Positions 62,276 to 64,000 of a stretch of DNA of 64,000 bases are shown piece after piece. The DNA lies in contig NZ_CP053707.1 in the NCBI RefSeq assembly GCF_013201035.1, positions 1,364,001 to 1,428,000 of the forward strand, read 5' to 3'. This DNA comes from Arthrobacter sp. NEB 688 (lineage in GTDB: Bacteria > Actinomycetota > Actinomycetes > Actinomycetales > Dermatophilaceae). The notes under the pieces were generated by a model. It saw only the letters and a program-made list of their open reading frames with translations. It was not told where the DNA came from and made no database searches. A program made the position numbers and the translations under genes. Every line of letters starts with the position of its first letter. Position 1 is the stretch's first letter.

Positions 62276-62489
62276 GTGCACGAACTGACGGATGTGTCGA
62301 TTCCTGCACACCCCCTGACGGCTGACCGTGCATCAATCGTCGAAAGCGACGATTGATGCACGCCCGGGTGCTCCGGGTGCTGGAGGGGTGCGTGCACGAA
62401 TCGTCGAAAGCGTCGACTGATGCACGCCCGGGTGCTCCGGGTGCTGGAGAGGTGCGTGCACGAATCGTCGAAAGCGACGATTGATGCAC
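62276..62489. repeat. Array of three 64-base hairpin repeats plus a degenerate unit
   Basis: Units start at 62328, 62392 and 62456, exactly 64 bases apart. Each begins with a 34-base hairpin: GTGCATCAATCGTCG, loop AAAG, then the complementary arm. The stem is perfect over 15 bases in unit 1, has one mismatch near the base in unit 3, and several in unit 2. The 30 bases between hairpins (starting GCCCGGGTGCTCCGGG) are nearly the same in both gaps. A degenerate relative lies at 62276-62309. The array lies between convergent operons and may end transcription from both. Confidence 0.9.
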
Positions 62490-62521
62490 GCCCGGGTGAC
62501 CGGTCCGGAGCGTGCCGGCGG

Positions 62522-63709
62522 CTACTTGTCGACGTCGCCGACGACGAAGAACATCGAGCCGAGCACGGCGACCATGTCGGCGACGAGGCAGCCGGGCAGC
62601 ACCTCGGTCAACACCTGGACGTTGTTGAACGACGCCGAGCGCAGCTTGAGTCGCCACGGCGTCTTCTCGCCGCGCGAGACGAGGTGGTACCCGTTGAGCC
62701 CCAACGGGTTCTCGGTCGCGGTGTAGCGCTCGCCCTCGGGCACCTTGAGCACCTTCGGCAGCCGCTGGTTGACCGGCCCGGGGGGCAGCGTCCGCAGGCG
62801 GTCCAGGCAGGCGTCGGCGAGGTCGAGGCTGACGTGCACCTGCTCGAGCAGAACCTCTAGCCGGGCGAGGCAGTCGCCCTCGGTGCGGGTGACGACGCGG
62901 CCGGGGCCGCCGGGGCCGAAGAGCTCGGCGTACGCGAGGTACGGGTCGTCGCGCCGCAGGTCGAGGTCGACACCGCTGGCGCGGGCGATCGGGCCGGAGA
63001 CGCCGTACGCGAGGACCGTCGCGGGGTCGAGCACCCCGACGCCGCGGGTGCGGGCGAGGAGGATCTCGTTGCCGACGAGCAGCGACTCGAGCTCGGGCAG
63101 GCGGCGGCGCACGGCATCCACGGCGTCGCCGACCCGCCCGAGCCACCCCGCGGGCACGTCCTCCTTGAGGCCGCCGACGCGGTTGAACATGTAGTGCATC
63201 CGGCCGCCGGAGGCCTCCTCCATGACGGCCTGCAGCTCCTCGCGCTCGCGGAACGCGTAGAACACCGGCGTGATGGCGCCGAGCTCCAGGGGGTAGGAGC
63301 CGAGGAACATCAGGTGGTTGAGCACCCGGTTGAGCTCGGCGAGGAGCGTGCGGAGCCAGACGGCGCGCTCGGGCACCTCCATCCCGAGCATCGCCTCGAC
63401 GCCGAGCACGACTCCGAGCTCGTTGGAGAAGGCCGAGAGCCAGTCGTGGCGGTTGGCGAGGACGGTGATCTGCCGGTAGTCGCGCACCTCGAAGAGCTTC
63501 TCGGCGCCCCGGTGCATGTAGCCGACGACCGGTTCGGCGGCGACGATGCGCTCGCCGTCGAGGACGACCTTGAGCCGGAGCACGCCGTGCGTCGCCGGGT
63601 GCTGCGGGCCGATGTTGAGGACCATGTCGGCCGTGGCGAGCCCGCCGGCCCCGACGGCGACGTCGAGGGCACGGGGCGCGTGCGGCTCGGTGGGGGCGTC
63701 GTGGCTCAC
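62522..63709 (-). CDS. NADH-quinone oxidoreductase subunit D-like protein (stand-alone NuoD paralogue)
   Basis: A 395-residue member of the complex I 49-kDa family. The N-terminal motif [15 protein letters not shown] has the quinone-site His (His41), and the HRG motif with the Arg that is methylated in mitochondria is present (MHRGAEKL, Arg67). At the position of the quinone-binding Tyr there is Trp90 ([10 protein letters not shown]), which is unusual. No other nuo gene is in the window. GTG at 63709 is chosen; an in-frame start at 63742 would overlap the gene upstream. From memory, similar stand-alone genes occur in Streptomyces. Whether it enters complex I is unknown. Confidence 0.9.
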
Positions 63710-63738
63710 GCGGCCAGTCTGCCGCACGGCCCGCGAGG

Positions 63739-64000
63739 TCACCCGGGGCGCACGCGGGCGAGGACCCAGCGGAACCCGCCGAGGCCGGCCGGGTCGGTGA
63801 GCGCGGTGAGCGCCGAGGTGTCCGCCAGCGCCGCGAGGTAGCCCGCGGGGTCGGTACGGGCGAGGGCGTGGTCGGGCAGGCCGGTGCGGCCGAGCAGCCG
63901 GTGCAGGGCCTCGCGCTGCGTCGTCAGCTCGTCGTGCCGCAGCGAGTCGACGGCGACGTGGGCGGTGAGGTCGCGGGAGCCGTCGGGCAGCGGGTCGACG
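63739..64000 (-). CDS. C-terminal end of a MidA-like (NDUFAF7 family) SAM-dependent methyltransferase, truncated by window edge
   Basis: An open frame enters from the right edge on the minus strand and stops at 63739-63741, giving 86 visible residues. It includes [20 protein letters not shown], which resembles the DITAHVDF-type motif of the MidA family, then [20 protein letters not shown] and the ending [15 protein letters not shown]. MidA/NDUFAF7 enzymes methylate an Arg of complex I subunit NDUFS2/NuoD. It lies 29 bases upstream of the NuoD-like gene on the same strand, so the two are probably co-transcribed. The catalytic domain is outside the window, so this is tentative. Confidence 0.55.

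Follow-up and report, generated by a model that had tools for sequence, protein, structure and literature searches.

The complex I literature describes a quinone-site tyrosine and a histidine as the two required proton donors (PMC7434922, PMC9120487), the tyrosine, Tyr87, being called conserved and essential (PMC7434922). In Thermus, the quinone histidine pairs with Asp139. A further position, the arginine of an HRG motif, is dimethylated by NDUFAF7 in human (PMC3829151), and in the NuoCD protein of Escherichia coli is present but reported to be unmethylated (PMC3750175). In Thermus, Nqo4 has threonine at this position and the space is filled by an arginine of NuoB (Nqo6 R83); in Yarrowia, NDUFS2 R121 takes this role instead (PMC8042128). 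A nuo2 operon that lacks the N-module, with nuoD2 located elsewhere, has already been described in Streptomyces (PMC3765725, PMC8388888).

Here, we report the analysis of a stand-alone nuoD paralogue, nuoD2, at the edge of a stretch of 64,000 nucleotides (the window) from Arthrobacter sp. NEB 688, the genome of which is a single contig of 4.08 Mb. NuoD2 is very likely the missing D (49-kDa) subunit of a second complex I-like proton pump without an NADH module in this Phycicoccus-like actinobacterium. The observations are sequence-based and comprise paralogy, gene neighbours, a nuo cluster that lacks D, residue states, an inter-subunit switch, phylogeny and co-occurrence; from these, we infer complex formation, methylation, the electron donor and quinone reduction. 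The relevant features of the window are as follows.

62522..63709, minus strand: nuoD2, encoding a 395-aa NuoD/49-kDa paralogue (open reading frame, PF00346, solved NuoD homologues)
63440..63442, minus strand: Trp90 codon, at the position of the quinone-headgroup tyrosine, Thermus Nqo4 Tyr87 (alignments)
63509..63511, minus strand: Arg67 codon, in the HRG motif, equivalent to NDUFS2 Arg85, the NDUFAF7 target in human (alignments; PMC3829151, PMC3750175)
63587..63589, minus strand: codon of the conserved His41, Thermus Nqo4 His38 (alignments)
63739..64000, minus strand: 3' end of a MidA/NDUFAF7-like methyltransferase gene that runs past the window edge (PF02636, match to 1zkd)

The nuoD2 gene and its quinone-site residues

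The last minus-strand gene of the window, nuoD2, starts at GTG 63709, and the resulting 395-aa form provides the numbering of His41, Arg67 and Trp90; an alternative GTG at 63742 adds 11 residues (406 aa; open reading frame 62522-63742, minus strand). The protein matches Complex1_49kDa (PF00346) with 233.5 bits in Pfam and PRK06075.1 of NCBIfam with 369 bits, above the cut-off of 360; against TIGR01962, the NuoD equivalog model, it scores 370.5 bits, below the cut-off of 459. NuoD models far outscore NiFe models, which rules out identity as a hydrogenase or formate-hydrogenlyase-type subunit. A recent duplication of the canonical NuoD of the same genome is ruled out by the 42% identity between the two proteins and by their different positions in the tree. 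Among the named loci, the closest relative is that of Phycicoccus jejuensis (98%). The AlphaFold model of NuoD2 has a mean pLDDT of 63, with residues 62-92 under 50, so that it gives fold support only; the top Foldseek match of this weak model is the mycobacterial NuoD 8e9g_D.

Just 3' of nuoD2, at 62327-62518, lie three 64-bp direct repeats, each of which begins with a near-perfect palindrome, CGTGCATCAATCGTCG ... CGACGATTGATGCACG. They represent a REP-like element, the core of which has no further match in the window at up to three mismatches; judged by eye, a similar stretch apparently lies near L005:3350.

Close relatives of NuoD2 (78-100% identity) were found in 13 of the 99 genomes surveyed in the order, 12 of which also encode a canonical NuoD. 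Across the phylum, 72 of 198 genomes encode a NuoD2-like protein (E 1e-90), and 60 of these are deep-branching. Forty loci were fetched, namely, 38 of the 60 deep-branching ones (44-60% identity) and those of the order genomes G045 and G013.

A phmmer alignment of NuoD2 with Thermus thermophilus Nqo4 (2fug_4) is ungapped across the active-site region, with query residue 34 of the 406-aa form on chain residue 20, and places His41 on His38, Arg67 on Thr64 and Trp90 on Tyr87. The original prediction, that this paralogue keeps the quinone-site histidine and the HRG arginine and has tryptophan in place of the headgroup tyrosine, is thus confirmed: aligned with NuoDs of solved structure, the protein has Trp, and not Tyr, at the quinone site. 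The substitution is fixed in the subfamily, with Trp at position 90 in all 102 NuoD2 rows (L007-L019 and L037-L125, some organisms being entered twice: L009/L052, L012/L093). His41 and Asp89 are invariant in these rows, and Arg87 is found in every aligned row examined, forming an R-x-D-(Y/W) motif. Residue 142 (63284-63286), at the position of Thermus Asp139, is Glu both in NuoD2 and in canonical actinobacterial NuoD; Gln is found there in 10 of the 38 deep-branching rows.

Canonical NuoDs carry Tyr at the equivalent of Trp90, both in an actinobacterial sample (18/18) and at the canonical loci of NuoD2-bearing genomes (25/25). Among the deep-branching loci, 37 of 38 have Trp; the sole Tyr belongs to L177, which is also the one deep-branching locus where nuoF and nuoG adjoin the NuoD gene. 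By alignment, the quinone-site residue is Tyr at L031 and L243 and Trp at L181. Tyr is present in a Prevotella set without E, F or G in its stretch, in a Haladaptatus plasmid copy and, by phmmer alignment, in cyanobacterial NdhH. These counterexamples rule out Trp as a marker of every N-module-less complex I, and the Trp rule is therefore claimed for this actinobacterial clade only.

Two plasmid-borne genes fall outside this clade. A plasmid of the haloarchaeon Halalkalicoccus jeotgali encodes a NuoD in which Trp takes the place of the quinone Tyr (L238:7467-9113), with no other annotated nuo gene in the 17-kb stretch. A Sphingobium yanoikuyae plasmid encodes a Tyr-type NuoD (L242:2974-4155), likewise with no other annotated nuo gene in its 7-kb stretch.

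MidA and the HRG arginine

The gene directly upstream of nuoD2 had been taken for a MidA-like methyltransferase on the strength of its 3' end, and reading of the full gene (G000:C1:1427739-1428698; L004:3240-4199, minus strand) bears this out. The 319-aa product matches Methyltransf_28 (PF02636) with a modest 63.5 bits (cut-off 23.3) over model positions 75-235 of 249, has 1zkd (DUF185) as its nearest solved structure, and contains a SAM-binding motif, VDVGAGRG, two Gly positions of which are kept in 97-99% of those MidA rows that have a letter at them. No other PF02636 gene is present in the genome. Its stop codon (63739-63741) overlaps the alternative nuoD2 start or, if translation begins at GTG 63709, lies 29 nt ahead of the start.

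The pairing of midA with nuoD2, on which the prediction relied, turned out to be conserved across relatives, with MidA encoded within the fetched DNA at 72 of the 80 named NuoD2 loci; of the other eight, seven have less than 5 kb of upstream DNA and one has no more than 609 bases downstream. In 65 of the 80, midA lies upstream on the same strand, with a median gap of 2.3 kb and a distance within 100 bases in 15; 7 named Streptomyces loci have it downstream of nuoD2, convergent and still adjacent.

In the order survey, MidA exceeds the Pfam cut-off in 12 of 99 genomes, comprising 11 of the 13 with NuoD2 and a single one of the 86 without it, G059; the two NuoD2-bearing genomes missed by Pfam have MidA upstream of nuoD2 according to a family profile. 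In G059, which encodes a NuoH of the second type (NuoH2), the contig breaks off about 1 kb from midA, in the place expected for nuoD2. None of the 37 order genomes with canonical NuoD but without NuoD2 and NuoH2 has MidA above the Pfam cut-off; in order genomes without nuo2 parts MidA was sought by Pfam, with a sub-cut-off match in G056 (and likewise in G271 in the class survey). In the class, MidA is present in 9/9 genomes with NuoD2 and in 0/7 without. In its genomic distribution, MidA follows the putative second complex and not canonical complex I.

The HRG arginine is present in all 102 NuoD2 rows and in all 38 deep-branching rows, and Thr replaces it in 18/18 canonical rows. The canonical NuoDs of NuoD2-bearing genomes have HTG at 24 of 25 loci, the pattern having matched a wrong stretch at the other one (L187), so that NuoD2 is the Arg-type NuoD in these genomes. 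On the basis of the genomics and the mitochondrial precedent, MidA probably methylates Arg67 of NuoD2.

Among the deep-branching genomes, 21 of 38 encode MidA (PF02636); the NuoD gene stands alone in 4 of these and is part of an operon in 17. From these 17, the 12 with both genes on one contig were fetched: in 8, midA comes after the nuo operon on the same strand, no more than 2.4 kb from the last antiporter-type gene identified, and in a ninth genome, G288, it adjoins the operon by Pfam coordinates. In the remaining 8 of the 17, midA is farther off or on another contig. The other 17 of the 38 deep-branching genomes, all with an Arg-type NuoD, have no PF02636 match; methylation therefore cannot be universal in the wider group, and neither Arg nor Trp requires MidA.

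The latter genomes fit an alternative that we consider unlikely, namely, that midA and nuoD2 belong to an old conserved housekeeping block, with MidA acting on another substrate and NuoD2 working unmethylated. The neighbours of midA indeed look like housekeeping genes (DUF3180 and DUF2520 by Pfam, fol-type genes by eye), and the E. coli arginine is reported to stay unmethylated (PMC3750175). Evidence against this alternative comes from the convergent yet adjacent midA of the 7 Streptomyces loci, from its position after the nuo operon in 8 deep-branching loci (9 with G288), from its lack above the cut-off in the 37 order genomes that have canonical NuoD but neither NuoD2 nor NuoH2, and from the restriction of the Arg-type NuoD to NuoD2 in the genomes concerned.

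The nuo2 cluster without a D gene

The window encodes no NuoB, NuoH or other NuoD, and all three are found elsewhere in the genome. The supposed absence of other nuo genes, which had been read as a mark of this locus, thus results from the window's edge and does not hold for the genome, where two further nuo clusters lie about 60 kb and 93 kb away. A search for a complete nuo operon identified the nearer one as the canonical, 14-subunit-type operon, in which A, B, F, G and H were confirmed by Pfam.

The second cluster, about 93 kb from nuoD2, consists of A2-B2, about 14 kb of other genes, C2-H2-I2-J2-K2-L2-M2-N2 and a gene for an M48 (HtpX-like) peptidase. A2, B2, C2, H2, I2, J2, K2 and L2 were identified by Pfam; M2 is above an NCBIfam subfamily cut-off, and the best match of N2 is NuoN, below the NCBIfam cut-off. 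C2 abuts H2, with no D gene between them, and queries with NuoD2, NuoF and NuoG had no match in the eight nuo2 clusters fetched (from this and seven other genomes). NuoB and NuoH each occur twice in the genome, and there are no more than two NuoD proteins, of which NuoD2 is the second. We infer that the A, B, C, D and H-N set of the 11-subunit, N-module-less type is present here, the distant nuoD2 providing its D subunit.

Long stretches of other genes interrupt nuo2 in this genome (about 14 kb between B2 and C2, L214:7760 to L215:7951) and in G254 (L222). The HtpX-like M48 membrane peptidase gene comes directly after nuo2 in all six clusters read to the end (L215:15713-16600, L216, L217, L219, L220, L221), and in the reduced cluster of G001 it follows nuoI2.

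The partnership is best illustrated by G045, where the canonical B, D and H are gone and the single NuoB, NuoH and NuoD are all of the second type. A nuo2 cluster lacking D is on one contig and midA-nuoD2 on another; unless NuoD2 serves as the D subunit of nuo2, this nuo set would be incomplete, which supports the assignment. NuoH2 is encoded in 13 of the 99 order genomes, 12 of the 13 with NuoD2 plus G059. Among 26 genomes with NuoD2, 25 (all but G045) gave two or more NuoB and two or more NuoH matches, some of them hydrogenase-like and the nuoH2 of G001 a remnant.

The wider relationships point in the same direction. In 33 of the 38 deep-branching loci, the NuoD gene lies with nuoB and nuoH, with no nuoF or nuoG match nearby; in four others, all from one family, the stretch contains no nuo gene but does contain midA, and for two of these four genomes with a stand-alone NuoD a nuo2 cluster lacking D was read as well (L220, L221). 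In a maximum-likelihood tree of 56 NuoD rows, NuoD2 forms one clade (100/100) inside the NuoDs of operons without F and G, and canonical NuoD lies elsewhere; the canonical and the Sphingobium outgroup rows are long branches that meet, a grouping flagged by the program as possibly false. Against 33/33 operons without F and G, NuoB2 scores 224-295 bits and NuoH2 216-347 bits, above the scores that the canonical B1 and H1 of the same genome reach there and also above those of NuoB2 and NuoH2 against B1 and H1 themselves (167 and 163 bits). NuoL2 does not share this affinity: in deep-branching operons, it is outscored by the NuoL1 of its own genome.

A reciprocal exchange between NuoD and NuoB provides a further test of partnership. 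R76 of the canonical NuoB1 aligns with Thermus Nqo6 R83, and NuoB2 has Thr there. At operon-linked loci with NuoB inside the stretch, Thr in NuoD goes with Arg in NuoB in 21/21 readable genomes and Arg in NuoD with Thr in NuoB in 38/38, the pairs falling into few large clades and not being independent events; the NuoB2 of clusters lacking D has Thr in 8/8. By this Arg/Thr switch, NuoD2 is predicted to match NuoB2, not NuoB1.

These data bear on a rival view, in which the canonical 14-subunit complex I would take up NuoD2 as an alternative isoform of its D subunit and thereby tune its quinone chemistry. Canonical NuoD accompanies NuoD2 in 12 of 13 order genomes, swapping of NuoL2/M2 has been proposed for Streptomyces (PMC3765725, PMC8388888), and G001 retains NuoD2 with hydrophilic nuo2 subunits only, for which the canonical membrane arm could serve as a docking site. 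Such a swap nevertheless appears improbable: the arginine of canonical NuoB would fill the space of NuoD2 Arg67, where NuoB2 has Thr; G045 has NuoD2 without canonical NuoB, D and H; and nuo2 would be left without a D subunit.

G001, a one-contig genome, has kept NuoD2, MidA, NuoB2, C2 and I2, with A2 and H2 reduced to remnants (L218:6200-9000) and J2-N2 not found in its nuo2 stretch, so that NuoD2 has been retained there and its membrane arm has not. Possibly, either nuo2 is decaying in this genome or a hydrophilic Q module works without a membrane arm of its own. NuoD2 itself might be viewed as a relic without function or as moonlighting, given its separation from the other nuo genes and the decay around it in G001, but this is very improbable in view of the 79% mean column identity of 31 NuoD2 sequences, the invariant quinone-site and N2-side residues, and its occurrence together with nuo genes of the second type in genomes from seven families.

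Because G045 keeps only NuoD2 and a cluster lacking D, NuoD2 nests among NuoDs from operons without NuoF and NuoG, and the Arg/Thr switch pairs it with NuoB2, we regard the membership of NuoD2 in the second complex as highly likely. The original prediction had left the choice between a modified subunit with altered quinone chemistry and a separate complex; the separate complex is now well supported, NuoD2 belonging to a nuo set without NuoF and NuoG, and altered quinone chemistry in NuoD2 is plausible.

The proposed second complex and known systems

Under the reading that we favour, NuoD2 as the D subunit of a separate complex, the D gene would have left the nuo2 operon and now sits with midA. 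MidA would probably dimethylate Arg67 of NuoD2 symmetrically. This residue would lie beside N2, the terminal Fe-S cluster bound by NuoB2, and its methylation may be what allows NuoD2 to dock on NuoB2 and the Q module to be assembled. NuoI2 would be the entry point for electrons, their most likely source being reduced ferredoxin or another low-potential carrier of this kind, and from there they would pass via N2 on NuoB2 to menaquinone; we take this actinobacterial lineage to be a menaquinone lineage. The predicted menaquinone pocket retains His41 and has Trp90 instead of the proton-donating Tyr, so that quinone reduction would have to use His41 without the Tyr hydroxyl. Protons would be pumped via NuoH2, L2, M2 and N2.

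As to the donor, genes for KorAB, a 2-oxoacid:ferredoxin oxidoreductase, adjoin nuo2 here and in G119, a 9.2-Mb genome of the class, and POR_N is found in 13 of the 14 nuo2 genomes of the order and in 19 of the 85 others. The position of KorAB beside nuo2 is suggestive of ferredoxin, which remains a tentative candidate for the electron donor of the second complex. The exception, G045, has no POR_N match; KorAB therefore cannot be an obligate donor, and Kor is ruled out as the universal one.

More tentatively still, we propose that this actinobacterial clade possesses an NADH-module-free complex I that reduces menaquinone without the Tyr, in which the pairing of dimethylated Arg67 with the NuoB2 Thr might serve as a key preventing the mixing of subunits, and the joint locus of the D subunit and its methylase might gate assembly. 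A clade with a fixed Trp amounts to a natural experiment on the need for the Tyr proton donor in coupling. Tyr/Thr-type and Trp/Arg-type enzymes are encoded in the same genomes, so that a single cell offers a comparison of the effects of the arginine position and of its methylation. For annotation, the results connect a nuo cluster that lacks D with an orphan nuoD and with a 'SAM-dependent methyltransferase'.

Among the matches listed in a search of the open-access literature, to which most subscription papers do not belong, we found nothing on MidA with nuoD2, on Trp at the actinobacterial quinone site or on a switch within one genome; no open-access paper was found on MidA in actinobacteria or on nuoA2.

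The methylation targets of mitochondria and Paracoccus are NADH-oxidising enzymes with the quinone-site Tyr. The pair of NDUFAF7/MidA and NDUFS2 Arg85 resembles the one proposed here in the enzyme family and in the HRG arginine beside N2 (PMC3829151, PMC3750175); in contrast to mitochondrial NDUFS2, NuoD2 belongs to a Trp-type enzyme. The 11-subunit nuoABCDHIJKLMN set of Desulfitobacterium hafniense likewise lacks NuoE, F and G, and ferredoxin is its suspected donor; there, according to the account of the operon, the D gene lies inside it (PMC11238625), whereas here it is relocated and carries Trp. The Streptomyces nuo2 set is similar in lacking the N-module and in having nuoD2 away from the cluster, but the passages on nuo2 in the published accounts mention no methyltransferase, Trp or Arg/Thr switch and list no nuoC2 (PMC3765725, PMC8388888); here, nuoC2 is present, several families share the arrangement, and midA adjoins nuoD2. 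Finally, the arginine switch of Thermus and Yarrowia involves the same two positions and the same reciprocal exchange but, as described, lies between species (PMC8042128), whereas here both states occur in one genome and point to the partner of an orphan subunit.
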